Position numbers and translations under genes: made by a program. The notes beneath the pieces are model-generated. The model searched no databases, had not been told where the DNA came from, and saw nothing but the letters and a program-made list of their open reading frames with translations. Of a DNA stretch of 55,985 bases, positions 932 to 36,970 are shown one piece after another. Numbering within the stretch: position 1 is the stretch's first letter; each line of letters starts with the position of its first letter. The DNA is from Bacteroidota bacterium (GTDB lineage: Bacteria > Bacteroidota > Ignavibacteria > Kapaibacteriales > NICIL-2): positions 1 through 55,985 of the forward strand of contig JAIBAE010000022.1 of assembly GCA_019695345.1 (NCBI GenBank). Reading direction: 5' to 3'.

Positions 932-1474
932 ATGAACCAGAACTCAAAACAAGAACGTTTCATGCTTCTGTTTAAGCCGCTTCAACCGCGGTTGGAACGA
1001 TACGCACTGACGCTTACACGAGACCGCGACGAAGCCAAGGACGTTGTAGGCGAAACCGTACTGAAAGCATTTGAACACTTTGAACAATTACGGGAAGAAC
1101 AGGCATTTTTAAGCTTTTTGTTCACTATTGCAACGCGGGTTATCCAACAACGGAAATTCCGCCGCGCCGATAGAATGAGCGAAAACCAAATAGAAGACCT
1201 GTTTGAAAACTACACAGCTCCCGATGTTGCTTACGATATTCAAATGCTTTACGAGCAACTTGATAAACTTCCCGCCGATATGCGCGATGCACTCGTGATG
1301 GCGGAAATTACCGGACTCAGCCACAAAGAGATTCAGGAAATTCAAGGCGGCTCGTTAACGGCAGTAAAAGTGCGCATCTTCCGCGCAAAACGCAAACTTG
1401 CAAAACTGATGGGCAGTACATTGTACGACGAAGATGTAGGCGTGCAATCGCTGGCTCTAAGCGGCGAAGAATAA
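932..1474 (+). CDS. RNA polymerase sigma-70 factor, ECF subfamily
   Basis: This 180-residue protein has the size and two-domain layout of an ECF sigma factor. Region 2 lies around residues 12-75, with the typical A..L..D.DEAKDVV.ET stretch followed by an F..W-like FLSFLFTIATRV segment. Region 4 lies around residues 110-160, with LP..MRDAL.MAEI.GLSHKEI.EI.G.S..AVK.R.FRAKRKL as a helix-turn-helix. It would bind core RNA polymerase and direct it to a small regulon. The next gene, 56 nt downstream, encodes a single-pass membrane protein in the usual position of an anti-sigma factor, and a VIT/VWA surface protein follows. The three probably form one operon. No zinc-binding anti-sigma motif is visible in the neighbour, so the pairing is an inference from order. 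Confidence 0.93.
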   Translation: MNQNSKQERFMLLFKPLQPRLERYALTLTRDRDEAKDVVGETVLKAFEHFEQLREEQAFLSFLFTIATRVIQQRKFRRADRMSENQIEDLFENYTAPDVAYDIQMLYEQLDKLPADMRDALVMAEITGLSHKEIQEIQGGSLTAVKVRIFRAKRKLAKLMGSTLYDEDVGVQSLALSGEE

Positions 1475-1530: not shown

Positions 1531-3030
1531 ATGAAAAAGAATCTTAATAACCTACTGAACAACGCGGCGGCGTTCGAGAACAAAACGGCACTCTGGTCGG
1601 AGGATGAGTTGCTCGATTTGCTTAAGAACGCTCCCGTTACTCCAACTCCTCCTCCGGCGGGCCGCACAGTTCAACCACTCACCAATACATGGAGGAACAT
1701 TATGTTTGGAACCACACTCCTTGCCGGGGCAACGGCAATTGTTCTGTGGCTTATGCCGCACAATGCAGAACAAATAGATACCAACGCCGATGTTGCATTG
1801 AACACAGTACAATCACAACAAAACAATGCAAACCAACGGGCTAATGTGCAGGCAGAAACAAAGGTAGAAATTAATAACTCGCTATCGCAATCGGCACCGG
1901 GCATTGCCGCTAACAGTAACGTTGCCATGCCGGAAAGAACCGTAGCCGAAAGCAACGCGTCACCGCAGATAGCTGATAACGTTGTACCAATACCCGAGAA
2001 AATCAAAGCACCAAAAGTGCTTGACCTAACAACACAGGAACTTGAAAAACTTGGTGTGAAAAAACAAAACAACACCTATGTGTTGATTGCAAAGCTTGGA
2101 GTTGATTACAACAAACCCTATGCAGTAAATGCCTTCTATGCAAACGCGGATAACCACCGCACAAGCATACAAGTAAACCAGAACATGGTTAAATCAAAAC
2201 TCGCACAATTTGAATACGATACAACACAACAAGCAAGTGTTATGAACTTTACTGTAACACTCGATGAACTTGATACAAAAGCAACACTGATAAAGGCAAA
2301 CGAAGCAACATCCGCAACGGTGTATCCCATTATCATCTCGCACGATAGTAAGGATGTAAACGGAAGCGAGGCAAGCAAAGTAATGATATTTGGCGAACCC
2401 GAAAACGAAAACGAGATGAACCGCCTGCGCGATGATGTTGCTTCGTTATTTGATGTGTTCAACCCTGTTGCACACAAACAAACCGAACGCAATGTTGCAC
2501 GTTTCCCATTAATAAGTAAACTGATTCCCGTGCGCATACAACACGCAGTGCCAAACAGCGGAAGCGCCGAGATAATTCTGTGGTACTACCCAACCGATGA
2601 ATTTATCAGCAAACTGCCATCACGCTATGCCGACCAAATTCGCAAAGAATCCGAGCGCATAGAACAAATAGAACAAAAGAACGAAAAAGACTCCGGCACC
2701 GCAACCATACAACAACGCTATGCAGGCGAATACCAATACACCGATGTAGCACGCTCACGCAGCGGAGCAGTAGAAATACTCTCGGTAGGACCCAATCCCG
2801 CACGCGAAAACGCAACACTACGGTATAAAGTATCCGAGCCACGCACCGTACACATTGTACTCTACGATATGCAGGGCGCAAAAGTAGCAGAGCTTGCAAC
2901 CGCCAACGCCTACACCGGCGAAACCGAAGCACAACTGCAACTAAACAACCTTGCATCGGGCGCATACCTGATAACACTGGTAACCGACCGCGGCGAACAA
3001 GCCATTCAACGATTGATAATTCAGAACTGA
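1531..3030 (+). CDS. Membrane-anchored putative anti-sigma protein with C-terminal T9SS sorting domain
   Basis: This 499-residue protein has no cleavable signal peptide. Residues 1-55 are hydrophilic with an acidic helix (ALWSEDELLDLLKNA), and residues 57-75 form one transmembrane segment (TTLLAGATAIVLWLM). A long N/Q/A-rich linker and a region of about 160-400 rich in predicted beta structure follow. Residues 418-499 match a T9SS type A sorting domain: VGPNPARENATLRY, IVLYDMQGAKV, LASGAYLITLVTDRG, ending IIQN. An N-terminal cytoplasmic helix plus one membrane span directly after an ECF sigma gene is the arrangement of anti-sigma factors. A T9SS CTD on such a protein is unexpected because cargo normally enters through a Sec signal peptide. 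Either the span acts as an uncleaved signal, or the CTD is used as an outer-membrane or T9SS contact domain. The anti-sigma role is an inference. Confidence 0.8.
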   Translation: MKKNLNNLLNNAAAFENKTALWSEDELLDLLKNAPVTPTPPPAGRTVQPLTNTWRNIMFGTTLLAGATAIVLWLMPHNAEQIDTNADVALNTVQSQQNNANQRANVQAETKVEINNSLSQSAPGIAANSNVAMPERTVAESNASPQIADNVVPIPEKIKAPKVLDLTTQELEKLGVKKQNNTYVLIAKLGVDYNKPYAVNAFYANADNHRTSIQVNQNMVKSKLAQFEYDTTQQASVMNFTVTLDELDTKATLIKANEATSATVYPIIISHDSKDVNGSEASKVMIFGEPENENEMNRLRDDVASLFDVFNPVAHKQTERNVARFPLISKLIPVRIQHAVPNSGSAEIILWYYPTDEFISKLPSRYADQIRKESERIEQIEQKNEKDSGTATIQQRYAGEYQYTDVARSRSGAVEILSVGPNPARENATLRYKVSEPRTVHIVLYDMQGAKVAELATANAYTGETEAQLQLNNLASGAYLITLVTDRGEQAIQRLIIQN

Positions 3031-3047: not shown

Positions 3048-6000
3048 ATGAAAACACAACAAAACTACCCGATACATAAAGGCATGTTCCGACTCTCAAC
3101 TCTGATTGCGGATACAACTCAACAAATACATACCCAACAACGTATAACAGATAATGGTAACCCGCTTCGGGTTTCAGGGCGCGCCTGCGCGGCAACCCTG
3201 TCCGCTCCCACCCGCCTGCGTCTTCCGCACGGAATGGTAAGTGTGGTTGTTATGATGCTTATACTTGTTGCTTCAACATTAACGGCACAGTACGGTCAGG
3301 TTGAACCGGTAATTGCACGATGCGGCTCACCACGGTTTCTTGTATCGCAAGGCGAAGCAAATGCGTTTGGGTTACGCTCTACCAATGTAACCGTAAATGT
3401 AGTTGGTGTAATAGCCGATGTAAACGTACGCCAGGTATATGTAAACAACGGCGCAACACCCGTAGAAGCAACCTACATATTTCCAGCATCAACACGTGCG
3501 GCAGTGTATGGCTTAACCATGACCATTGGCCCGCGCATCGTTAAAGCAGTAATCAAAGAAAAACAAGCCGCGCGTGCAGAATACACTGCCGCCATACAAC
3601 AAGGCAGAACTGCAACCTTGTTAGACCAAATAAAACCAAACGTATTCCAGATGCAGGTTGGTAACATCCCCGCACACGACTCCGTTGTGGTAGATATGCA
3701 CTACACCGAAGCTTTGGAACTACGCGAAGGCGAATACGAATTTGTATATCCCGGTGTTGTTGGCCCACGCTATGTTAGCGGTGTGCCATCATCCGAATAC
3801 GATAAAGTTCTTAACAGTTCCGATTTACCCAAAGAAGTTCCCGGAACATTTAACATTGTTACCAATATCTCGGCAGGTGTTCCCGTTGCCGAGGTAACAA
3901 GCCCATCGCACTCGGTAAAAACAACAACACTCGATGGCGTTAGCCGTGCGTTGCTTTCAACACCAAAAAAGAATAGCATAACATCGGTAAGCATGGCGCA
4001 TAACGATGCACTCAACCGAGATTATGTGTTACGGTACCGTTTAACAGGCCGTGCAATAGAATCGGGGTTGTTATTATACAAAGGCGAGAAAGAAAACTTC
4101 TTTATGCTAATGGTGCAACCACCAAAAAATGTTGAGATACCAAATATCGTTCCGCGTGAGTTTGTATTTATTGTAGATGTAAGCGGTTCGATGCAAGGCC
4201 AGCCAACAGTTATTGCTCGCGATATGATGAACAACCTGTTCAAAACATTACGCCCATCCGATAAATTCAATATCATGATGTTCAGCGGTGGCAATATGGT
4301 GTTCTCGCCAAATTCAGTAGAGGCCACGCCCGATAACATTAAACGTGCGTATGGCTTTTTAACAAGTGGCTACGGCGGCGGCGGAACGGAATTACTTCCT
4401 GCATTAAAGGTTGCGCTTGCTATGAAAGCCGAGCCCGGCTACGCCCGCAGTTTTATTGCCTTAACCGATGGCTATGTTACCGTAGAGCGCGAAGCATTTG
4501 ATTTGGTACGTAACAACTTAAACAATGCAAACTTCTACGCATTCGGTATAGGCACAAGCGTAAACCGTTGGTTAATGGAAGGACTTGCCCGCGCAGGTAA
4601 TGCCGAATCGTTTATTGTTACCAACTTAAGCGAAGCACCTGCAATGGCAGAAAAATTCCGTCAGTACATAGAGGCACCTGTGCTTACAGGCGTAAAAGTA
4701 GATTGGGGGAATATGAATGTGTATGATGTTGACCCGGGCACAATTCCATCGGCAACATCCAAACGCCCAATAGTAGTGTATGGTAAATGGAAAGGCGATG
4801 CAACCGGAACATTACGCTTAACAGGTAATGCAGCCGATGGCGCTTACACCTTCGATGTAAACATTGCCGCACAACCACAACTACCCGAGCACGCCGCACT
4901 GAAATACCTGTGGGCACGTAACCGTATTAAATTTATTGAAGACGGTATGGTTGGCAACTGGGGCTACGAGCGCGCCGCCCAACCCGATGAGCAACAGCTT
5001 ATAACATCAATTGGGTTAAACTATAACCTGCTTACCAAATACACATCGTTCATTGCTGTTGATAGCACAACACCGGTTAAGAAACCTGTGGTTAAAAAAG
5101 ATACGTCAGGGAAGCTACATGTGGCTTGCATCGAACCTTCGTATTTAAGAAAATATATCGTAGATGGAGAAGACATCACTGATGAGGTAACCGAACCACT
5201 TGGTCAAGTACCTCAAACCCCAAGCGGTACAAACTCCCCAACAGTAGGTAAAAAACAATCAACATCAGTTGGTAATTCATCTTCACCAAAAAGTAAACCT
5301 GCTAAACCTGCACCGCAACAGGTTACGGTAACTGCACAAAAAGAGAACGTAGATGCTAAAGAAGTTGGAAAAATTAAGAGTGTTAGCGCAGAACCCTTAG
5401 CAACAACCCGCGAAAGCGCAGTAAGCATTGCAACAACACAAGCTGGTGTGCAAGCAAGCGGCGGTGGGTTGGTTGTCCGTGGCAGTCGTAATAGTGATAA
5501 TAAATATCTTGTAGATGGCCAAGACTTAACCGATGTTGTTACTGGTACACTGGGTACTCCAGCATCTTCAGCAGGTGCAAATTACACACCTACTTCAAGC
5601 GCATTTGCTACCGAAGATGTACAAGTAGTAACCGGGAATGCAAATGCACAATATGGAAACGCATTAGGCGGCGTGGTAAATACAGTTATGAAAACAGGTA
5701 AGGCTAACAATAGTTCAGAAGCAAGAGATGCTAAAGGCACAACACCAACAGATAGCCGTAACCAAACAACAACTAAGGTTGATGAAAAGCACAATCCATC
5801 AAAAGAATCATTAGAGCAAGCTAATAGCAATGCTGCACCAACATTTAAGAGCACAACTACTAACTCAATACCAACAGAGCAACAACCTAAAACACAAGGC
5901 GTAACACCTCCCCCTCCGCCAACAACAACAGCGGTAATACCGGAAGCAAAGCCACAAACCGAGCCGGCTAAACAGCCACAGGCAGTTGTACCACAACGCA

Positions 6001-6791
6001 CGGTAGCACAATCAACAACACAGTCCACACCAACGCTTACGCAGTCGGTTGCTGTTACGTCGTCTGGGGATAGTGACGGCGGCGGCGGGGTAGACGGTGC
6101 AGATCCACTTATGCCGTGTTGTGCTCCATCACGTTTATACGTTGGTCCTGTATTTGGGTATAGCCAATCATTTCAAACAACTACATTTGATATGCTGAAT
6201 GGTACAACACAACAGGTAAGCAGTACAGGTAATGGTTTTATGGCGGGGTTAAGTGCAGAGTATCTATTGGGTGGACCCAAGTATTCAACAGCATCACTAA
6301 TCATAACCACACTATATCACAGCACTCCTGCAACATTCTCAACAAGTGGTACTGTTGCGGCATTCAAAGCAAACAGCCCCGATACAACTTCCGCCCTTGC
6401 TCAATTCCTTGCAGAGCGTAAAGTATCGCGCCTAACGCTTGGTATAATGTATAAGCACAACCTTGGCAATACACCATTGGTACTAATGGCGGGGCTAAAC
6501 CCATCGCTTATAATAAGTAATACGTTGGAAACCAAAGCAACGTTGCCAAGTACTGCGGCATGGGCGGCAAACTCAACAACAACCGAGCGCATGGTAACCA
6601 CGGGTGCAATGGCAAACACAAACAAGTTCCATCTTGGTGCACAGCTCGGGCTTGGGTACGAGTTCATCCTCAAGAAAATCTTTGTAGTTCCGTCCATCTG
6701 GTATAACTTAGGGTTAACAAACACAACAATCAGTGCAACAAATAAACTCAGCTCAATCGATTTTGTACTATCAATCCGTTTTGCGTTGTAA
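3048..6791 (+). CDS. VIT-VWA domain protein with TonB-plug-like segment and C-terminal beta-barrel-like domain
   Basis: The ATG at 3048 has a good Shine-Dalgarno (AGGAG at 3035-3039), giving 1247 residues. The signal peptide, however, starts only at residue 63 (ATG at 3234; MVSVVVMMLILVASTLTA), so the true start may be 3234. Domains in order: VIT about 88-245 (VNVRQVYVNN.A..P.EATYIFP, then E..AR.EY..A..QGR.A.L); VWA about 368-545 with MIDAS DVSGS near 376-380; a Ser/Pro/Gln-rich linker; a stretch at about 788-884 that mimics a TonB receptor plug (LVVRGSRNSDNKYLVDGQDL, then EDVQVVTGNANAQYGNALGG, then VVNTVMKTG); another Thr/Gln/Pro linker; and about 1028-1247, which looks like a small outer-membrane beta-barrel (alternating strands, VGPVFGYS start, IRFAL end). 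An echo of the plug motif (YIVDGEDITDEVTEPLG) occurs near residue 703. VIT-VWA proteins are secreted adhesive or metal-binding proteins. The plug and barrel parts suggest outer-membrane anchoring. Confidence 0.88.
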   Translation: MKTQQNYPIHKGMFRLSTLIADTTQQIHTQQRITDNGNPLRVSGRACAATLSAPTRLRLPHGMVSVVVMMLILVASTLTAQYGQVEPVIARCGSPRFLVSQGEANAFGLRSTNVTVNVVGVIADVNVRQVYVNNGATPVEATYIFPASTRAAVYGLTMTIGPRIVKAVIKEKQAARAEYTAAIQQGRTATLLDQIKPNVFQMQVGNIPAHDSVVVDMHYTEALELREGEYEFVYPGVVGPRYVSGVPSSEYDKVLNSSDLPKEVPGTFNIVTNISAGVPVAEVTSPSHSVKTTTLDGVSRALLSTPKKNSITSVSMAHNDALNRDYVLRYRLTGRAIESGLLLYKGEKENFFMLMVQPPKNVEIPNIVPREFVFIVDVSGSMQGQPTVIARDMMNNLFKTLRPSDKFNIMMFSGGNMVFSPNSVEATPDNIKRAYGFLTSGYGGGGTELLPALKVALAMKAEPGYARSFIALTDGYVTVEREAFDLVRNNLNNANFYAFGIGTSVNRWLMEGLARAGNAESFIVTNLSEAPAMAEKFRQYIEAPVLTGVKVDWGNMNVYDVDPGTIPSATSKRPIVVYGKWKGDATGTLRLTGNAADGAYTFDVNIAAQPQLPEHAALKYLWARNRIKFIEDGMVGNWGYERAAQPDEQQLITSIGLNYNLLTKYTSFIAVDSTTPVKKPVVKKDTSGKLHVACIEPSYLRKYIVDGEDITDEVTEPLGQVPQTPSGTNSPTVGKKQSTSVGNSSSPKSKPAKPAPQQVTVTAQKENVDAKEVGKIKSVSAEPLATTRESAVSIATTQAGVQASGGGLVVRGSRNSDNKYLVDGQDLTDVVTGTLGTPASSAGANYTPTSSAFATEDVQVVTGNANAQYGNALGGVVNTVMKTGKANNSSEARDAKGTTPTDSRNQTTTKVDEKHNPSKESLEQANSNAAPTFKSTTTNSIPTEQQPKTQGVTPPPPPTTTAVIPEAKPQTEPAKQPQAVVPQRTVAQSTTQSTPTLTQSVAVTSSGDSDGGGGVDGADPLMPCCAPSRLYVGPVFGYSQSFQTTTFDMLNGTTQQVSSTGNGFMAGLSAEYLLGGPKYSTASLIITTLYHSTPATFSTSGTVAAFKANSPDTTSALAQFLAERKVSRLTLGIMYKHNLGNTPLVLMAGLNPSLIISNTLETKATLPSTAAWAANSTTTERMVTTGAMANTNKFHLGAQLGLGYEFILKKIFVVPSIWYNLGLTNTTISATNKLSSIDFVLSIRFAL
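3159..3200. repeat. Palindromic GC-rich sequence inside the leader of the VIT-VWA gene
   Basis: A perfect hairpin AACCCG-CTT-CGGGTT lies at 3159-3173. It is followed at 3175-3200 by nested inverted repeats CAGGG/CCCTG and GCGC/GCGC. The sequence sits between the Shine-Dalgarno-linked ATG (3048) and the signal-peptide ATG (3234), and it is much more GC-rich than its surroundings. It looks like a REP-type insertion that has stayed in frame. Confidence 0.5.
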
Positions 6792-25702: not shown

Positions 25703-28700
25703 ATGAACATACGTAGTTATTGTTCATTGATTATTACAATGCTTTTGTGCGTAGCAGGGATGCAGGCGCAGAGTGTTAATTCATTTGCTTTCCATAATAG
25801 TACAGCCACCTTTACTTCGATTGTAGGACAGGGTGGTACAAATGATATTGTGTACCCCGGTAGCGGAGCGGGAACAGATTGGGATGACGACTACTTTACA
25901 GGCATTCCAATCGGTTTTACATTTAGTTATTTAGGGAATACATATACTACTTGTGCTGCGAATGTAAACGGGTTTATGATGCTTGGGGGAACAGCTGTAA
26001 GCGGAAGTTCGTGGGTTCCGGATTTAGATGGTAGCTCCGGCTCAAGCGGCCGCCCTGTACTTGCCCCATTTTGGAGTGATATGGAGTTGTTGGATGGTGG
26101 AAACGGATATTTATCGTACAGAACAGATGGAACATCACCTAATCGTGTTTTTACTATAGAGTGGAATCATGCCGAATGGACGTATACAAGTGGGGTGGAA
26201 AGTATTTCGTTTCAGGTTAAATTATATGAGACTACCGGTATTGTTGAGTTTAATTATCAGCAGGAAGACGCACAGGCATCAACACAGTCTATAGGTGTGG
26301 GTATTTCTGCAGCGGCTACAGGTAGCGGCTCTTTTATAAACATAACAAATGCTAACTACAATACAATATCAACTACAACCGAAACAACTGTTTCAACTAG
26401 ACCCAATAGTAATACACGGTTGCGTTTTACACCAATTGGTGGCTCGCAAACAGCCCCAACCAGCATTGGCTTCACCAATGTTACAAATTCAAGCATGACA
26501 GTAGGTTGGACAAATAACTTGGCAAATGCGGTGGCAAATGTTGTGTTTATTTCAACTGATAATACCAACTTTACACAAACAGGATTTGTTAATACCACGG
26601 GCACAGGTGCGTATTCGTTAAATGTTACGGGATTAAGTGGAAATACAACATATTACGTTAGAGTATATGCAGTAAATAATAGTGGTAGTAGTACAGCACT
26701 AACTGGCTCGCAGACAACTGCTTCCGGTACAATGGTAGGTACATATACAATTGGACCCAGCGGTGCTAGCTTTACCTCGGTTAAAATGGCGATAGATACA
26801 ATGAATGCAAAAGGGTTGGCTGGTGCGGTAGTGTTTGAATTATTACCCGCTTATACAAGTTCGGTTGAAACATTTCCATTAACATTTGGATCTATAACGG
26901 GTGCATCTTCTACAAATACGATAACATTCCGTCCGGCAACTGGAGCCACAAACCTTACAATTACTGGCTCTAATGCAACTGCAATATTAGATTTAAACGG
27001 AATAGACTACTTACGTTTCGACGGGCGTCCCGGAGGTAGTGGTATAACATCGCAGTTGACGATTTCCAACACGTCGGCAACGACTACAACATTATCAACA
27101 GTACGTTTTATTAACGATGCTACCTTTAATACATTTACATATTGTACAATACTTGGGGCAACAATTAATACAACAACTGGTTCGGTATCGGGTGGGGGTA
27201 CAATCCATTTTAGTACTGGTACATCTGCTGGTAATTCAAATAACACAATCAGTAATTGCAATATAGGTCCGGTTAACTCCACAACAGCAGTACCCTATAA
27301 AGCAGTGTATGCCTATAATGCCACAACATCTGCTATGAGTTTGAATAATACATTTTCAAACTGTAATATCTATGATATGTTTTATCCGGCCGGTACCAAC
27401 TATTGGTTTTATTTAGGAACAGGTAATGCCGCTTGGGTATTTAACGGGAACAGTATATACCAAACCCAAACACGTTCGCATACAGCGAGTAACAGTAACT
27501 ATGTTTTTTACTGTGCGAGTTCAAGTGTTAATCAGAAATATACCTTTAACGGAAATTATATTGGTGGAACAGCGCCACAGTGTGGTGGAACACCTATGAC
27601 GATTAATATTGGTGCATCTACAACATTAACGCCACTATTTTATGGCATATATGGTACACGGTCATCATCGTTAACTGATACGATGTTTATTACAAATAAC
27701 ACGTTTAGTAATATTAGTTGGACGACTGCTTCAACCAGTAGTTTAGGTTTTAATTGTGTGTATTCGTTTTCAGGTCCCCAATACATTGTAGGTAATACAT
27801 TTGGTAGTGCAACAGCCACCGGCAGTATTGTGATTAACTGTGTTGCTACTGGTACAACTGGAACAGGTTTTACAGGTGCTTATGCATACTCAAGTTCAAC
27901 ATCACTACCAACTATTATGAATAATAATACTGTTGGTGGTATATCAATGGTAAACACCGCAACTGCTTCAGGATGTTATTTTCAAGGATTGTATCTAAGC
28001 AGTACAACGGGTCCGGGTTCAACTATAAGTAACAATGTGATAGGAAATGCAACAGTTAGTAACTCAATTTCAACAAGTACAGGCATCACCGGTACTGTGA
28101 ATATGAGAGGTATTTACTTGGCAACATCAACAGGTGCTGTTGCAGTAGGTGTAACCAATAATCTAATCGCTAATATTACCTGTAACGGTGCATCTACTAC
28201 TTCGGGTGGTCAGTTTGTGCATGGTATTTATGGCTCAAGCGGCATCCATAATATTGCAAATAATACTATCAGAGATTTACGTAATTCAGCACCAAATGCA
28301 AGTTCTACGAATACAACGGTATCGGTAGTGGGGATAAATCAAGCATCAACTACTACCCCTGCCGGTCCAAGCGGGCATACAATTTCCGGTAATACAATCC
28401 ATACGTTAATAAATACAAATACAACAACAACGGGGTTATGGGTTGTTGGAATCAGTGCAAACAGTGCAACAGCAAGCTCAAACTTGGTTGAAAGAAATAC
28501 AATACATTCATTACGCTGTGCTACAACCACAACAACCGCATCGTGTCCAGTGGTAGGAATGTTAGGATTTGGCGGGCCAACCACCTATCAAAATAACATG
28601 ATACGATTAGGGTATGATGAAGGTGGAAATCCTATCTCATTATTAAATGGATATCAGGGATTCCAAAAAGCTTCAACAACTACCATTAACTTTTGGAATA

Positions 28701-31700
28701 ATAGTATTTATATTGGTGGTACAGTTGCAACCGGAGCTGCAAATTCTCTTGGTATATGGCGGAACGGTATTCCATCTTCCGGTACTGATGACATACGGAA
28801 TAATGTAGTGCAAATAGCACGTTCTGGTGGAACTGGCTCATATATTTGTATGAATGTTGGCAGTGCAACTCCAACATCAGTTGCTGCTGCAATAGCCGGG
28901 TTAAACATTAATAATAATGTGTATTACCATAATGGAGCCGGTGGATTTATAGGTGCGATTCAAATTTCAACATCGTACACCGGATATTCTACAATGTCCG
29001 CATGGCGGGGCGCGGTTGTTGGTGACGGTGCTTCTGGATATGGAAACCCCAATTATATCAATCCAACAGGATCGTCATCTTCCGGCGATTTACACATTTC
29101 CTCTACAGGGGCAACACCTATCGAGGGGAACGGTGCTGCAATCAGTTCTGTTGTAAATGACTATGATGGACAAACACGTTCCGGTTTAACACCAAATGAT
29201 ATTGGTGCAGATGCAGGTAATTTTACAGCAACGGATATATTTCCACCTACTATATCATATACACCAATTGCAAACTCGCCTGTAGCAAGTACAAAAGCTG
29301 TATCAGGCGTGGATATAACAGATTACTCTGGAGTTAATACTACAAGCGGTACACGCCCCCGATTATATTACAAAAAGATTGCAGAGGCAAATACATATGC
29401 CGGTAACACTAGTACCGATAACGGTTGGAAATGGGTAGAGGCAAACGGAACTACAACACCATTCTCCTTTACTATTAATTACTCGTTACTCAATAGTTCT
29501 TTAGCGACAGGTGATACTATTGTATATTTTGTTATTGCACAGGATGTTGCTACAACACCAAATGTGGGATTTAATACAGGTGTATTTACAGCCGACCCAA
29601 CATCTGTGAATTTAACTGCCACAAACTTCCCGATGAACATAGTACGTTTTTATAGAATTCTTCCTTCTGTTAGCGGTACAATAAATGTGGGACCAACAGA
29701 AACGATCAACTCAATTACAAACACCGGCGGATTGTTTGAATATATCAACAACAGAGTTGTTGTAGGTAATGTTACAGCGCAAATTACCGGTAACTTGATA
29801 AGTGAAACGGGAACTGTTGCGCTTAACCAAACTTCCGAAGATGGTACTGGTGGATATACAGTTACTATACGTCCTGCAGCGAGTACAACAGATACAATTA
29901 GTGGTTCTTATGCAGGAGGGTTAATCAGATTGAATGGTGCAGATAGGGTTGTTATTGACGGTAGAAGAGTAGGTGATGCAACAGGAAGAAATTTGACGGT
30001 TCATAATACAAGTACAACGGGATCTGTTGCAACAATTCAGTTGGTTAGCTTGGGTATTGCTGCGGGTGCTGTAAATGACACCATTAGGTATTGTAATTTA
30101 GGTGGTGGGCAGAATACCAATAGTACATCAAACGTTATATTCTCCGGAAGCACAATAAATACAGCAGGTTCAGATAATGATAATTTATCAATTGAGAATA
30201 ATGCTATCTATCGTAGCTATTACGGAATCAGATTATTGGGTGTTAGCGGAAGTGCGCATGACAATATAAATATATCCGGAAACTTTATCGGAGCGCAATC
30301 AGTTATTGGTAATACAGCTTCAGGCGATAGCTTGAAGTATAATGGTATTACGCTTTCTCAAGTTAATACCTCAAGCATAACAAGCAACACTATTAAAAAT
30401 ATATCAACTGCTACAACAAACGGGGCAGGGATTCTTACGGATAACAGTTCGGGATTACTTATAAGTAAAAATGTTATAGATGGTATAATCGGAAATGCAT
30501 CCAGTACATATTATACTCGTGCAATATGGCTCAATACTAACACGATAAACAGTACTGTATCTTCAAATGTAATGAATAATATTAAGTACATTAATACAGG
30601 AAACTGGGGATCATATGGACTAGAATGTTCAAGTGGACTTCAAACAACAAATTCTGTAATCATCAATAACATGATATCAAATGTTGCTCACGATTACGGT
30701 GGAGGAGCAGGTAGTACTTTTGCAGGTTATGGTATTCGAATAAATGGAAGCGGTGGTATACAGGTTATACACAATACCGTTTTATTAAGAGGTACAAACG
30801 GTACACCGGCAAGTGGCACCAATAACTCACATGCTTTTGCATGTATTGGTACTGCGCAAAATATGGATGTTCGAAATAATATCTTTTCAAATAGAATGTA
30901 TGGCTCATCCGGCTCTAAGTCATGGTGTGTATATGCTACCTCGTCGGCGACATTTACCAATTTTGATTATAATATTTTAGATACAGCCGGTAATACATTG
31001 CAGGGTGTGTTGGGGTATTATGGTGGTGATTTAGTAACGATAGCAGCATTTAGAACGAGCATGGGGGGAAATCAAAATACTTTCATGACCTCAGTTCCTT
31101 ATGCGGATTCATCAGCAAATTCAAACTTGCACTTAGGTCAGATAGTTACTAATTACAAAGGCACATCAGTCGTATCATCCATTGTATCAACGGATATCGA
31201 TGGCTTAACACGTTCAAACTATATTATAGGCGCAGATGAGGTTAAACCTGTGATCCAGTTTACCCAACAGCCATCGGGCTCAACAATATGCGAAGGCAGC
31301 AACTTTAGTGTTACCTCCGCAATTACTACTCCTATAACCTTTGATGACGGTGTAACACGTACAACACCAACACCAACATATCAATGGTTGTTAAACGGCA
31401 CTCCAATAACCGGAGCAACCAATGCAAGTTATAGTGTAACAGGTGCAACAACGGCTAATGCCGGAAGCTATGCACTACGCGTATATGCATCGAGTATAGA
31501 CTCGGCAACATCCAATGCTGCAACCGTTAATGTATATACCAATGCAAGCATCACAACACATCCAAGTGGAACGGGTAGTAACCTTTGTCCGGGCAATACA
31601 ACATTTACCTTAAGTGTTACAGCTACAGGTACAACACCAACGTATCAGTGGCAAAAACTTGTAGGTGCTACATGGACAGATATCTCTGGTGCAACAGCCT

Positions 31701-34700
31701 CAACATACCGTCCGGTAGCAGGGTGGGCAACAGCAGATAGCGGTAGTTATCGTGTAGTTGTATCCTCAACATCACCATGTTCACAAAGTAATAATAGTAA
31801 TGTTGCGGTTGTAGGTGTATTTACTGCTGCAAGTATAGCAACTCAACCAACCGTTACCCCATCCAACTCGCGTTGTTTAGGCGATGCCTTTACGTTAAGT
31901 GCTTCGGGAGCCGGTTCTGGGGTGCAGTACCAATGGAGATTAAACAGTACCAATATTACAGGTGCTACAAACTCAACGTATAGCGTAACATCGGCTACCC
32001 TGAGTGATTACGGTACATACGATATTGTTGTTTCTAATACATGTAATAGCGTTACTTCCAATACTATAGTTGTTTCACAAACAACACCAACATCAATAAC
32101 AACACAACCTGTAGCAAGCACAACATTATGTCCGGGACAAACGTACAATGTTAGTGTTGTTGCCGCAGGTGCTTCGTTAACGTATCAATGGCAAAAACTA
32201 AACGGCGCTGTTTGGAGTAATATCAGTGGAGCAACAAGTACATCATTTAGCATAGCATCTGTTACAGCAACCGATGCTGCAAGCTATCGAGTTAATGTTA
32301 CCGGTACATGCGGTACGGTTACCTCGGGCAATGCAGTACTGAACGTGAATGTAACAACAGCAATAACAACCCAGCCAACCCAACCAAGTGCCTATTGTGT
32401 AGGTGATAATATCTCTATTAGTGGTTTGGTTGCCGCAGGAACAAACGTAACATATCAATGGCAAAAACTGAGTGGTGTTACCTGGAACTCTATATCCGGT
32501 GCAACAAGTAGTATATACAGCCAAACAAATGCACAGGTTACAGACTCCGGCTCATACCGTGTGGTAGTTAGCGGTACATGTGGTACGGTAAACTCCAATA
32601 CAATAACAATCATTGTTAATTCACCAATTACGGTAACAACTCACCCAGCATGGAACAATCCAAATAAATGTACGGGCGAATCTGCTATAATAAGTGCTAC
32701 CATAGCAGGTACTGTATCAACCTACCAATGGCAAAGATTTAATGGTACCACTTGGGTAAATATCAGCGGTGCATCAGCATCAAGTTATACACTAAATAAT
32801 ATTGCGCTGGCTGATTCGGGCGATTACCGCTTATTACTCACCGGACCTTGTAGTTCGCCAACAACAACAAATTCAGATAGGTTGTTTGTACAACAAAACG
32901 TACAGATAACAGCAAATCCTCAAGGTTCGGCTGTGTGTGCAGGAAACTCAATTTCACTGTCAGTAACAACTATCGGAACAGTTGTATCCTATCAGTGGCA
33001 ACAAGACCAGCTACGCAACGGCACATGGACTAATATCAGTGGTGCAACAAGTTCTTCATATTCCAAATCAAATGTAACAGTTGCGGACTCCGGTAATTAC
33101 AGAGTATCAATAATTGGTACATGTAGTGCAATACCGGTTGTTTCAACAGGTGCTTCTATAGTAATTCAGTTACCATACTCAGTTACATCGCAACCAACAT
33201 GGCCAACTACACCTACAAATGTAGGTCAGGTTGTTTCGTTAACAGTTGGTTATACCGGTACAGCAAACTTCCAGTGGCAACGCGATCAACAGCGTAACAA
33301 CAACTGGGTTAACGTTGGTACCAACACAGCTACATATTCCTATACGGTTAATACTGTTGCAGATTCAGGTAATTACCGTTGTATAGTAACCGGACCTTGT
33401 ACAGCTGGAAGTGTTACAACAAGTACAGCTGCGGTATATACATGTCAGCCACCAACATTTACTTCGCAGCCACAACAACCGGGTACGTTGTGTCCGGGTG
33501 GTACGTTATCGTTAAGTGTACAAGTAAATACACAAGGTCAAACAGTAACCTATCAATGGCAACGTGATGTTAACCGAAATGGCACATGGACAAATATTAG
33601 TGGCGCTACAAATACATCGTATGTAAATAGTAACCTACAAACTACCGATGCAGGGTTCTATCGTGTACAACTGACAAGTTCTTGTAACGCTGTTCCAGTT
33701 AACAGTAATACGGTAGATGTTGTTCTTAACCAGCCAATTACAGTTACAACTCAACCAACATCACAGACAGTATGTGTTGGAGCAAATATTTCGTTTACGG
33801 CTGCCGCAACCGGCAATAACCCAACGTATCAATGGTTCTATAACAATGCGCCAATCAGTACAGGATTAAATGCTACTGCTGCATCTGCTACATTACAGTT
33901 AACCAATGTATCGGCAGCTAGTGCGGGTTCGTATAAATGTTTTATTAGTGGTACGTGTTCACCTAACGGCGTGTTTACCAATGCGGCAACATTAACAGTA
34001 AACAGTACTGTAACTATATCGCAACAACCACAGAACACAACCGGATGTGCAGGAACTCCTGTAACCTTTAGTGTTGCTGCGCAAGGTACAAATGTTGCCT
34101 ATCAATGGAAGTTCGGTGCTAGCGTAATTAGCGGTGCAACAAACGCCACATATTCTATTGCAAGTCCAACAACAGCAAACAACGGTTCCTATAGTGTAGA
34201 TGTAACAAGTACCTGTGGTAATACTACCAGTAACAGTGCAACATTAACAATTTACATTCCGGCAGCATTCAGTACACAACCTTCAGCTCAAACTGTATGT
34301 CAGGGTACAAATATTTCTTTATCAATTGGTATTAATGCAGATGCAAGCGGACCAACATACCAATGGCGTAAAAATGGTGCCGATATCAATGTGGCATTAA
34401 ACCCAACAGCATTATCTACAACACTTGTATTAAATAATGCTACACCTTCCGATAACGCTACCTATACCTGTATGGTGAAAACAGCATGTCAGCCAAATGG
34501 TATCGTTTCCAACGGAGCAACATTAACAGTAAACCCGGCTACTTCAATTGCAACCCAGCCAACAGGCACAACCGTATGCGAAGGAACTTCGGCAACACTG
34601 AATGTAGTAGCTCAGGGTACATCGTTAACATATCAATGGAAGAAAAACGGAACGGATATCTTTGGTGCAACCAATTCAAGTTATGTAATACCAAGTGTTG

Positions 34701-36970
34701 TACTCAGTGATGCCGGCAATTACACCGTAGTAGTAAATGGCACATGTGCACCATTAAGCGTAACATCCAATACCGCTACGTTGGCAGTAAACCAACGCGT
34801 GCAGATAACCGGAGCAACGTTGCAAAATCAAACAGTTTGCCAAGGTGCAAACGTTCAGTTTGTAACAAGTGCAATTGGTACAGGTGTTACCTATCAATGG
34901 CGTAAAAACGGAGCGGCAATTACAGCCAACTCAACAGCATTAACGGCAACACTATCGTTAACCAATGTAACACCAACTGATAACGGTACGTACGATTGTA
35001 TTGTAACCGGTACTTGTAATCCAAATGGTGTGGCTACTAACTCAGCTTCATTGGCAGTGAACTTACCTGTTATCATACAAACAACACCACAGAACCAATC
35101 GGTTTGCCAAGGTGCAAATGTTCAGTTTACAACAAGTGCAACCGGCTCGGTGTTGGGATATCAGTGGCGTTACAACGGACAACCGATTTCCGGTAATGCA
35201 ACGGCAACAACAACAACGCTTGTATTAAATAACGTAACGGCAGCTAATAACGGAACCTACGATGTAATTGTGAATGGTGTATGTAACGTTCCAACATCGG
35301 CACCTGCTACATTAACGGTAAATCAACCAATTGCAATTACAACACAACCATTAGCACAAAAAGGTTGTATCGGTTCAACCATAACAACCTTTGTAACCAC
35401 AAGTGGTAATGTACTAAGTTATCAGTGGCAGAAAGACGGAAATGATATTCCGGGTATGACGACAGCAGTGCTTACAATTACTAACCCAACAAGTGCTTCT
35501 TCGGGTATTTACCGTTGTGTGGTAAATGGTAGTTCGGCATGTGGCACACCGCAAATAATTTCCAATGCAGTTGGTGTGGTAATTGGTACACCGGTAGTAA
35601 TTACAACACAACCACAAGATAAATCCGTAGCATACGGTTCAACAGTGACGGTAACTGTGGATGCTAGTGGCGCAGGGTTCGGACAAAACGATCAACTCTT
35701 CTACCGTTGGTATAAAGGAACAACACAACTAAACGACGATAACCGTATCAACGGTTCAACAACCGGAACGCTTACCATACGTGGTATTCAGCCAAGCGAT
35801 GTAACGGCAGATTACACCGTTGTAGTACTTGGCTCATGTGGTCAGGCAACAAGCCGTCAGTTTGCAATTGTGGTTCCAAGTGCAAGTATCAACTCACAAC
35901 CACAGGGTTCAACCATCTGTGCCGGACGCCCGACAGTGTTCTCGGTATCGGCAGTAGCAACCGTACCAAACAGTACACTTTCGTATCAATGGTATCGCGG
36001 TGCAACAGCATTAACCGATGGCGGTACAATTAGCGGTGCATCAACAGCACTGTTACAAATATCAAGTGTTGCCGCAGCCGATAGCGGAGACTACACTGTA
36101 CAAATACTTGTACAACCAGGTGGTGCACGTGTAACATCTAATGTTGCACATCTCACCGTAGGCGAAACACCAACAATAACCACACAACCTGCAAGCCAGG
36201 AAGTATGTGCCGATAGCAAAGTAACCTTAAGCGTAGCTGCAAAAGGTATTGGGCTAACATACAAATGGTTGGTATCAGGTTCAACAACAGTACTTGGTAC
36301 ATTGCCAACATTAGAGATTGCACAAGTACAACCATCAATGGCGGGCTCGTATACGGTAGAGATAACAAACATCTGTGGTGCTGTAACAAGCAGTGCAGCA
36401 GTGATTACCGTCAATACATTGCCAAGTATAACCGAGCAACCACAAGGGGCTACAGTTACCGTTGGTGGCAACTTTACTGTACGTGTAGTAGCAACCGGAA
36501 GCGCGCCAATAACATATCAGTGGCGTAAAGGCGGCACCGATATTCCAAACGCTACAAACTCAACATTTACAAAAGCAAACGCCGATAAAACCGACGAAGC
36601 AGAATACACCTGTATCGTTCGTAACGGTTGCGGCGAAGTTACAACAGCTAAAGCCAATGTATTGGTAAGCACGGTTAGTGTTGGCGATGCAGAACAATTT
36701 GGATACAGCATACAATCTACCGAACCAAATCCGGTTAGCGATGTAGCAACAGTACGTTACACAGTAGCGCAATCGGGTGTTATTAAAATCACTCTTACGG
36801 ATGTAAACGGCAGAACCATTGCAACACTATGCAACGATATGCAAGAAGCCGGTAATCATTCGGTTCTGTTACGCAGTGGCGATTTAGATATAGCTTCGGG
36901 CACATATCAAATCACGCTGGTAACACCACAGGGATACACAACAACAAAACGAATAGTAATTGTTAAGTAA
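25703..36970 (+). CDS. Giant Ig-repeat surface protein (3755 aa) with T9SS sorting domain
   Basis: One uninterrupted frame encodes 3755 residues. The order is: signal peptide MNIRSYCSLIITMLLCVAGM (then QAQS); a nidogen-like beta domain about 25-250 (TGIPIGFTFSYLGNTYTTCA, PFWSDMELL); one fibronectin type III domain about 253-345; and a right-handed beta-helix-like region about 350-1200 with many N.I....F.N turns. A second beta-helix-like region spans about 1330-1840. About 1850-3660 holds 20 Ig-like repeats of roughly 90 residues, each with I.TQP....VC.G, a central YQW and a closing G.Y...V.G.C. The final 85 residues are a T9SS type A sorting domain (TEPNPVSDVATVRYTV, IASGTYQITLVTPQG, ending IVIVK). 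Such proteins are long adhesins or S-layer-like fibres in Bacteroidota, and a role in adhesion or gliding is inferred. A strong terminator follows at 36991. Confidence 0.95.
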   Translation: MNIRSYCSLIITMLLCVAGMQAQSVNSFAFHNSTATFTSIVGQGGTNDIVYPGSGAGTDWDDDYFTGIPIGFTFSYLGNTYTTCAANVNGFMMLGGTAVSGSSWVPDLDGSSGSSGRPVLAPFWSDMELLDGGNGYLSYRTDGTSPNRVFTIEWNHAEWTYTSGVESISFQVKLYETTGIVEFNYQQEDAQASTQSIGVGISAAATGSGSFINITNANYNTISTTTETTVSTRPNSNTRLRFTPIGGSQTAPTSIGFTNVTNSSMTVGWTNNLANAVANVVFISTDNTNFTQTGFVNTTGTGAYSLNVTGLSGNTTYYVRVYAVNNSGSSTALTGSQTTASGTMVGTYTIGPSGASFTSVKMAIDTMNAKGLAGAVVFELLPAYTSSVETFPLTFGSITGASSTNTITFRPATGATNLTITGSNATAILDLNGIDYLRFDGRPGGSGITSQLTISNTSATTTTLSTVRFINDATFNTFTYCTILGATINTTTGSVSGGGTIHFSTGTSAGNSNNTISNCNIGPVNSTTAVPYKAVYAYNATTSAMSLNNTFSNCNIYDMFYPAGTNYWFYLGTGNAAWVFNGNSIYQTQTRSHTASNSNYVFYCASSSVNQKYTFNGNYIGGTAPQCGGTPMTINIGASTTLTPLFYGIYGTRSSSLTDTMFITNNTFSNISWTTASTSSLGFNCVYSFSGPQYIVGNTFGSATATGSIVINCVATGTTGTGFTGAYAYSSSTSLPTIMNNNTVGGISMVNTATASGCYFQGLYLSSTTGPGSTISNNVIGNATVSNSISTSTGITGTVNMRGIYLATSTGAVAVGVTNNLIANITCNGASTTSGGQFVHGIYGSSGIHNIANNTIRDLRNSAPNASSTNTTVSVVGINQASTTTPAGPSGHTISGNTIHTLINTNTTTTGLWVVGISANSATASSNLVERNTIHSLRCATTTTTASCPVVGMLGFGGPTTYQNNMIRLGYDEGGNPISLLNGYQGFQKASTTTINFWNNSIYIGGTVATGAANSLGIWRNGIPSSGTDDIRNNVVQIARSGGTGSYICMNVGSATPTSVAAAIAGLNINNNVYYHNGAGGFIGAIQISTSYTGYSTMSAWRGAVVGDGASGYGNPNYINPTGSSSSGDLHISSTGATPIEGNGAAISSVVNDYDGQTRSGLTPNDIGADAGNFTATDIFPPTISYTPIANSPVASTKAVSGVDITDYSGVNTTSGTRPRLYYKKIAEANTYAGNTSTDNGWKWVEANGTTTPFSFTINYSLLNSSLATGDTIVYFVIAQDVATTPNVGFNTGVFTADPTSVNLTATNFPMNIVRFYRILPSVSGTINVGPTETINSITNTGGLFEYINNRVVVGNVTAQITGNLISETGTVALNQTSEDGTGGYTVTIRPAASTTDTISGSYAGGLIRLNGADRVVIDGRRVGDATGRNLTVHNTSTTGSVATIQLVSLGIAAGAVNDTIRYCNLGGGQNTNSTSNVIFSGSTINTAGSDNDNLSIENNAIYRSYYGIRLLGVSGSAHDNINISGNFIGAQSVIGNTASGDSLKYNGITLSQVNTSSITSNTIKNISTATTNGAGILTDNSSGLLISKNVIDGIIGNASSTYYTRAIWLNTNTINSTVSSNVMNNIKYINTGNWGSYGLECSSGLQTTNSVIINNMISNVAHDYGGGAGSTFAGYGIRINGSGGIQVIHNTVLLRGTNGTPASGTNNSHAFACIGTAQNMDVRNNIFSNRMYGSSGSKSWCVYATSSATFTNFDYNILDTAGNTLQGVLGYYGGDLVTIAAFRTSMGGNQNTFMTSVPYADSSANSNLHLGQIVTNYKGTSVVSSIVSTDIDGLTRSNYIIGADEVKPVIQFTQQPSGSTICEGSNFSVTSAITTPITFDDGVTRTTPTPTYQWLLNGTPITGATNASYSVTGATTANAGSYALRVYASSIDSATSNAATVNVYTNASITTHPSGTGSNLCPGNTTFTLSVTATGTTPTYQWQKLVGATWTDISGATASTYRPVAGWATADSGSYRVVVSSTSPCSQSNNSNVAVVGVFTAASIATQPTVTPSNSRCLGDAFTLSASGAGSGVQYQWRLNSTNITGATNSTYSVTSATLSDYGTYDIVVSNTCNSVTSNTIVVSQTTPTSITTQPVASTTLCPGQTYNVSVVAAGASLTYQWQKLNGAVWSNISGATSTSFSIASVTATDAASYRVNVTGTCGTVTSGNAVLNVNVTTAITTQPTQPSAYCVGDNISISGLVAAGTNVTYQWQKLSGVTWNSISGATSSIYSQTNAQVTDSGSYRVVVSGTCGTVNSNTITIIVNSPITVTTHPAWNNPNKCTGESAIISATIAGTVSTYQWQRFNGTTWVNISGASASSYTLNNIALADSGDYRLLLTGPCSSPTTTNSDRLFVQQNVQITANPQGSAVCAGNSISLSVTTIGTVVSYQWQQDQLRNGTWTNISGATSSSYSKSNVTVADSGNYRVSIIGTCSAIPVVSTGASIVIQLPYSVTSQPTWPTTPTNVGQVVSLTVGYTGTANFQWQRDQQRNNNWVNVGTNTATYSYTVNTVADSGNYRCIVTGPCTAGSVTTSTAAVYTCQPPTFTSQPQQPGTLCPGGTLSLSVQVNTQGQTVTYQWQRDVNRNGTWTNISGATNTSYVNSNLQTTDAGFYRVQLTSSCNAVPVNSNTVDVVLNQPITVTTQPTSQTVCVGANISFTAAATGNNPTYQWFYNNAPISTGLNATAASATLQLTNVSAASAGSYKCFISGTCSPNGVFTNAATLTVNSTVTISQQPQNTTGCAGTPVTFSVAAQGTNVAYQWKFGASVISGATNATYSIASPTTANNGSYSVDVTSTCGNTTSNSATLTIYIPAAFSTQPSAQTVCQGTNISLSIGINADASGPTYQWRKNGADINVALNPTALSTTLVLNNATPSDNATYTCMVKTACQPNGIVSNGATLTVNPATSIATQPTGTTVCEGTSATLNVVAQGTSLTYQWKKNGTDIFGATNSSYVIPSVVLSDAGNYTVVVNGTCAPLSVTSNTATLAVNQRVQITGATLQNQTVCQGANVQFVTSAIGTGVTYQWRKNGAAITANSTALTATLSLTNVTPTDNGTYDCIVTGTCNPNGVATNSASLAVNLPVIIQTTPQNQSVCQGANVQFTTSATGSVLGYQWRYNGQPISGNATATTTTLVLNNVTAANNGTYDVIVNGVCNVPTSAPATLTVNQPIAITTQPLAQKGCIGSTITTFVTTSGNVLSYQWQKDGNDIPGMTTAVLTITNPTSASSGIYRCVVNGSSACGTPQIISNAVGVVIGTPVVITTQPQDKSVAYGSTVTVTVDASGAGFGQNDQLFYRWYKGTTQLNDDNRINGSTTGTLTIRGIQPSDVTADYTVVVLGSCGQATSRQFAIVVPSASINSQPQGSTICAGRPTVFSVSAVATVPNSTLSYQWYRGATALTDGGTISGASTALLQISSVAAADSGDYTVQILVQPGGARVTSNVAHLTVGETPTITTQPASQEVCADSKVTLSVAAKGIGLTYKWLVSGSTTVLGTLPTLEIAQVQPSMAGSYTVEITNICGAVTSSAAVITVNTLPSITEQPQGATVTVGGNFTVRVVATGSAPITYQWRKGGTDIPNATNSTFTKANADKTDEAEYTCIVRNGCGEVTTAKANVLVSTVSVGDAEQFGYSIQSTEPNPVSDVATVRYTVAQSGVIKITLTDVNGRTIATLCNDMQEAGNHSVLLRSGDLDIASGTYQITLVTPQGYTTTKRIVIVK
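31250..36690 (+). repeat. 20 tandem Ig-like domain repeats inside the giant gene
   Basis: I counted 20 units by their start (I.TQP or similar, then C.G) and their central QW. Units 2, 4, 5 and 6 share YQWQ-type strands with a W.(D/N/S)ISGA insertion. Units 7 to 9 share a Q/R-rich RNGTWTNISGA-like variant. Units 12 to 15 share RKNG or KKNG. This grouping suggests block duplications instead of single-unit growth. Confidence 0.85.

Follow-up and report, generated by a model that had tools for sequence, protein, structure and literature searches.

What is the plug of a TonB-dependent receptor doing in a protein that has no receptor barrel? The question is raised by P0001, a protein of 1247 residues encoded by an intact open frame (3048-6791, forward strand) in a 55,985-nucleotide stretch of a Bacteroidota genome of the order Kapaibacteriales (assembly GCA_019695345.1, contig JAIBAE010000022.1; the whole stretch is referred to here as the window). 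VIT, VWA, a real plug and a non-receptor barrel follow one another in one chain, an architecture that the first-pass annotation of the locus had rightly called unusual. Plugs are regarded as gates functioning solely inside their own barrel. Where does this plug come from? Is it under selection? And what could it do?

The source of the plug is found in the same genome. A search of that genome returned the C119 receptor, which matches P0001 residues 753-886 at E 5e-47 with 63% identity; in pairwise alignment residues 757-884 (5316-5699, forward strand), starting in the TonB-box region and closing with the KTG of the plug, are identical at 85 of 128 positions (66%). Pfam, whose matches in P0001 all lie above the curated cut-offs, places Plug (PF07715) at residues 761-876 (1.1e-6, above the gathering score). 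The first-pass annotation had recognised a plug at 788-884, which is correct as to its nature and too short as to its extent; its fallback, that the segment might not be plug-like, is removed by the Pfam match and the identity to the receptor plug. The P0001 plug scores 162.7 bits against itself, 118.9 against the C119 receptor and 23.7 against the next receptor of the genome. Pfam Plug hits number 25 in this genome, 23 of them in receptor-sized frames, and there are three clear plug copies. By sequence similarity, the donor is one of about 23 receptors in the genome. In the TonB-box region QQVTVTAQ of P0001 aligns with KEIVVFGK of the receptor (by alignment only). Receptors of the donor type (L192, L191, L189) have about 1040-1105 residues and are present in most families sampled from the order, with about one copy in each genome; in genome G030 an ECF sigma factor gene and an anti-sigma-like gene lie upstream of it. 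The own-genome donor is encoded on contigs C119 and C159. The donor may be Oar-like; a sequence search of the PDB with it gave no match.

What surrounds the plug in P0001? As the first-pass annotation had it, the N-terminal part is of VIT-VWA type, with a VIT domain at residues 109-219 (3372-3704, forward strand; PF08487, 2.6e-33) and a VWA domain at 371-530 (4158-4637, forward strand; PF13768/PF00092), the VWA_3 match covering 371-518 (9e-17). Directly past the VWA core lies a partial second plug copy missed until now, KYIVDGEDITDEVTEPLG (residues 702-732; 5151-5243, forward strand), whose alignment score of 75 compares with a maximum of 55 among 2000 shuffles and which reaches E 0.007 in a separate search. 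The plug is followed by a low-complexity Pro/Thr/Ser/Gln linker (885-1012; 5700-6083, forward strand), in which plug similarity is no better than in shuffles. The chain ends in an outer-membrane barrel (1029-1247; 6132-6788, forward strand), matched by OMP_b-brl_2 (PF13568) at residues 1029-1226 (2.8e-8), which agrees with the earlier view that the C-terminus is too short for a receptor; no receptor-barrel match and no 22-stranded barrel were found after the plug. AlphaFold2 models this part with eight strands (pLDDT 68, pTM 0.61), and Foldseek of the model returns OmpA, OmpX, NspA, Ail and OmpW, with E about 1e-5 to OmpA, OmpX and NspA; the quality of the model is moderate and the TM-scores are 0.3-0.6. 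A stand-alone relative on contig C96 is 41% identical, and the barrel is less conserved than the plug (32% identity to that of L014). A plug does not fit inside an 8-stranded barrel, so the plug of P0001 does not gate the barrel of the same protein.

Could the protein simply be an accident? Odd domain order is the sole argument for a chimeric assembly, or for a VWA gene joined to a decayed receptor gene, and either is scarcely credible. The frame is intact, the barrel has the size of those of OmpA and OmpX, and VIT-VWA-barrel orthologs without a plug exist. Orthologs elsewhere carry plug pieces in the same linker; on this ground an assembly chimera was rejected, and with it the fusion artefact considered in the first-pass annotation.

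The plug is also not confined to P0001. Its profile was searched against 61 genomes of the order, odd frames were retrieved and most host families were checked with Pfam. The non-receptor carriers are VIT-VWA-barrel proteins (P0001, L014, L008, L069), DUF4139-type proteins (L188 in the same genome, L186, L185), alpha-2-macroglobulins (A2M; L187, L181), VIT-VWA-TPR-DUF2135 proteins (L179, L180, L183; two also with CarboxypepD_reg) and a YfbK-type VWA protein (L184). The insertions always lie in loops or linkers, immediately ahead of the A2M domain in the alpha-2-macroglobulins, and the DUF4139 orthologs of genomes G015 and G049 have an empty loop at the insert position. An RGxR...VxGxDV core is common to the inserts; it is decayed in L179 and incomplete in L186 and L187. 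The TonB-box region is kept in P0001, L014, L180 and L184. As to the hosts, the plug pieces of the A2M carriers (L181, 1326-5846, in G022; L187, 1055-7258, in G030) are near the bait-region position. Between VWA and TPR, L179, L180 and L183 have CarboxypepD_reg, TonB box and plug or a reduced version of this set; VDG has decayed to FDN in G049 and CarboxypepD_reg is gone in G015.

Do these inserts descend from one another or from the receptors? Nine inserts belong to genomes whose receptor is in a panel of 31 genomes. Seven of the nine match their own receptor best among the 31 receptors; for the other two the own receptor ranks second, behind that of a sister species, and fifth (a 44-residue piece). 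The eight longer inserts take several positions in a plug tree, each beside the receptor of its own genome, genus or family, and the own-genome trio of receptor, P0001 and DUF4139 insert is supported at 100/98. The AU test rejects a single origin of all inserts (p 1.5e-7), which are thus polyphyletic. This leaves two histories, repeated copying of the plug or old copies held in line with the receptor. The P0001 and receptor plugs agree at 66% of residues, 39% of third positions and 28% of four-fold sites, with dN 0.29; the P0001 plug and the DUF4139 insert agree at 70% of residues, with dN 0.22 and dS 1.7. Since these last two copies, both outside receptors, keep 70% of their residues while most synonymous similarity is lost, they are under purifying selection.

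A pattern of this kind invites a simpler explanation, in which pieces of the receptor gene are copied into tolerant linkers, like an in-frame mobile element, with no function for the host. The affinity of the inserts to the receptor of their own genome, in the ranking and in the tree, is what such duplicative insertion would leave behind, as are the loop and linker sites, and a true dispersed DNA repeat also lies in the P0001 gene (see below). Eroded and permuted inserts point the same way and weigh against a function of the plug: the L179 insert is eroded, the pieces in L181 and L186 are in permuted order, with a YGN..GG-SR junction in L186, and the DUF4139 paralog of the own genome on C113 (L219) retains only a plug remnant, SVRGGRESSSSYRTD; erosion, permutation and remnants fit a weak or lost function. 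The TonB box is absent from the inserts in DUF4139 proteins, in A2M (L187) and in two VIT-VWA-barrel proteins, which rules out binding of TonB as a function shared by all inserts. Single-sequence AlphaFold2 of the plug alone (residues 746-896), a check proposed together with that of the barrel, was uninformative (pLDDT 34), and the fold of the plug thus rests on homology. The barrel of the donor receptor (823 columns), run as a control over 15 genomes, matched only in receptor-sized frames, most receptors in this control being recognised by frame length and not by full annotation.

This last result speaks against duplicative insertion. Although the barrel is over three times as long as the plug, no pieces of it turned up outside receptors in the 15 genomes, and copying seems limited to the N-terminal part of the receptor; random copying of the receptor gene was rejected because the control gave no match outside receptor-sized frames. 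In addition, the ends of the P0001 insert coincide with domain borders, the donor is a single receptor out of so many, and the inserts of P0001 and DUF4139 are strongly constrained in amino acids, with synonymous sites near saturation. Constraint and barrel control together disfavour neutral insertion, which we regard as unlikely in general and which may hold for the eroded copies. Comparison of sequences establishes the origin of the plug, its specificity for a single receptor subfamily, the constraint on its amino acids and its recurrence in other families.

What, then, could a plug do in P0001? The explanation we favour, tentatively and with somewhat less than an even chance of being right, is that it works in trans as a mimic of the receptor and wires the VIT-VWA module to the donor receptor or the Ton system. 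The VIT-VWA part would face the periplasm, held in the outer membrane by the 8-stranded barrel, and the plug, probably also periplasmic, would sit between the two. TonB would be bound through the TonB box where there is one, and the shared RGxR...VDGxDV core would bind the barrel of the receptor itself, a ligand or an accessory protein. A narrower possibility is energy coupling only, with TonB pulling on the TonB box of P0001 and so moving or unfolding the VIT-VWA part at the outer membrane. The retained TonB-box regions, the TonB-like genes on contigs C78, C27, C47 and C124 of the genome and the TonB_C domains on VIT-VWA relatives are consistent with it. So is the proposal that vWA proteins are force transducers in which VWA replaces the C-terminal domain of TonB/TolA (PMC12204202). 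It leaves unexplained why there is a single donor receptor and why some inserts have no TonB box, and the QVTVTAQ of P0001 has drifted from the EIVVFGK of the receptor; we consider it distinctly improbable. Receptor mimicry is preferred over pure TonB coupling because the inserts have a minimal core in common, point to a single donor and match the receptor of their own genome.

A wider reading is less likely: plugs of one conserved receptor subfamily may serve as a portable adaptor in the order. Proteins of at least five envelope families, alpha-2-macroglobulins and VIT-VWA proteins among them, would each carry a plug matched to their own genome's receptor and would be drawn to that receptor, or control it, in trans. 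If receptor-specific reuse under constraint holds, the plug alone would carry a binding function, and borrowed plugs would give a sequence handle on the partner of a receptor kept in most sampled families of the order. Bacterial VIT-VWA proteins, widespread and uncharacterised, would be tied to the Ton system from three sides.

Is P0001 instead a sensor? Upstream of it lie an ECF sigma factor gene (932-1474, forward strand; Pfam Sigma70_r2/r4_2), the linkage to which the first-pass annotation had pointed out, and a gene (1531-3030, forward strand) for an anti-sigma-like protein, a conserved neighbour of the sigma and VIT-VWA genes, with an N-terminal part, a hydrophobic segment, a long extracytoplasmic part and a T9SS sorting tail (Por_Secre_tail, 1e-10). 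The anti-sigma role of this middle protein is putative, assigned from its position alone. The three genes are closely consecutive and the trio is kept in four genomes (G000, G030, G118/L069, G015), with synteny of the sigma factor gene in L069, L193 (G030) and L194 (G015). The combination of the T9SS tail with the putative anti-sigma protein is kept in G030 and L069, and roughly in G015. So tight an operon would suit a FecA-like cell-surface sensor, with P0001 signalling through the anti-sigma-like neighbour to the sigma factor. In G015 the third gene of the operon encodes a VIT-VWA-barrel protein that lacks the plug; linkage to the sigma factor is thus independent of the plug. Moreover, the Pfam scan of P0001 found no STN domain, and the anti-sigma factors of known surface-signalling systems are contacted by a further domain at the N-terminus of a 22-stranded receptor (PMC9249621). 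A signalling role of P0001 is hence rather unlikely, and the plug-dependent sensor under ECF control of the first-pass annotation is not supported, given the plug-less operon, the absence of STN from the Pfam scan and a barrel too narrow for a plug.

The start of P0001 is uncertain (3048, or possibly 3234). A Shine-Dalgarno-like AGGAG precedes the ATG at 3048, yet a dispersed GC-rich repeat copy (3150-3222, no strand assigned) stands before the hydrophobic, signal-peptide-like segment MVSVVVMMLILVASTLTAQ (3234-3290, forward strand; residue 63 onwards), which aligns with the signal segments of the orthologs. The repeat has at least 40 matches in the genome at E <= 3e-5 (40 listed of 114 candidates) and a core of about 30 bp, GCGCGGCAACCCTGTCCGCTCCAACCCGCC. 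Given this position of the repeat, the first 62 residues of the frame may stem from it or may not be translated at all. Elsewhere in the window, an open frame of 3755 residues (25703-36970) is rich in Ig-like repeats and seems to end in a sorting tail. Scanning the window for Rfam families and tRNA genes gave no matches.

How did a VIT-VWA protein come to this form? Proteins with the VIT-VWA core occur widely (Deltaproteobacteria, Nitrospirota, Acidobacteriota, Bacteroidota), and the tails of 43 of 75 relatives carry TonB_C at E <= 0.01. Such tails occur within the order as well, in L011 (TonB_C and FKBP) and, judged by eye, in further proteins. The Pfam scan found no TonB_C in P0001. In the VIT-VWA tree, P0001, L008 (G030) and L069 group together (support 99), followed by L070/L009 (G015/G049; support 100), which have the barrel and no plug; in the barrel-bearing branch the barrel thus most simply predates the plug. 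On these comparisons, the TonB_C tail is gone in the P0001 lineage, a small barrel was added and then plug pieces. As far as sequences tell, VIT-VWA meets Ton components in three ways: through TonB_C tails, through a SusC fusion and through borrowed plugs. The fusion is found in Dysgonomonas sp. 511 (L126, 4536-9458; 1641 residues), where a SusC-like receptor has VIT-VWA inserted after CarboxypepD_reg and ahead of the TonB box. L011, L244, L245, L246 and L256 have a VIT-VWA part, a terminal TonB_C (by Pfam in L011) and then an FKBP-type prolyl isomerase domain. A short motif like [ND]PL.P lies ahead of barrels and of TonB_C domains, in the linkers of P0001, L008, L012, L013, L244, L246 and L256 and in the stand-alone barrel L004.

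How does all this compare with known systems? A search of the literature for plug domains outside receptors, plugs with M56/BlaR1 and VIT with TonB gave nothing relevant, most subscription journals being outside its coverage. Databases do contain plug-like pieces in A2M and M56/BlaR1-type proteins of Bacteroidota. In-frame mobile elements of the Rickettsia palindromic element type exist as many near-identical DNA copies, whereas the plug copies share only 66-70% of residues and their synonymous sites are near saturation. With TonB-dependent receptors (PF07715) P0001 shares a TonB-box region and a complete plug; their barrel is 22-stranded, while that of P0001 is an 8-stranded barrel of another family, with VIT-VWA in front. 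By strand number and fold match of the model, this barrel belongs with the OmpA/OmpX/OmpW class. The VIT-then-VWA core is common to TIGR03788, ITIH and PARP4 proteins, the solved relatives being PARP4 (8e-36) and ITIH4 (3e-26). The profile of TIGR03788 (marine sortase target) spans P0001 residues 111-689 and scores 366.7 bits, below its cut-off of 551.65. Most bacterial VIT-VWA relatives end in TonB_C where P0001 has plug and barrel. The vWA force transducers (PMC12204202) resemble P0001 in their VWA and trans-envelope motor link; they are tethered to the inner membrane with a motor-binding helix, whereas P0001 has an outer-membrane barrel. FecA-FecR-FecI likewise unites an ECF sigma factor, a putative anti-sigma factor and an outer-membrane protein in one operon, but P0001 has neither STN nor receptor barrel and its operon also exists without the plug. 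L126 of Dysgonomonas is like P0001 in that a single chain carries VIT-VWA and, after it, a TonB box and a plug; there the plug is of SusC type and a long receptor-like barrel follows, whereas P0001 combines the plug of another receptor subfamily with a small, unrelated barrel.

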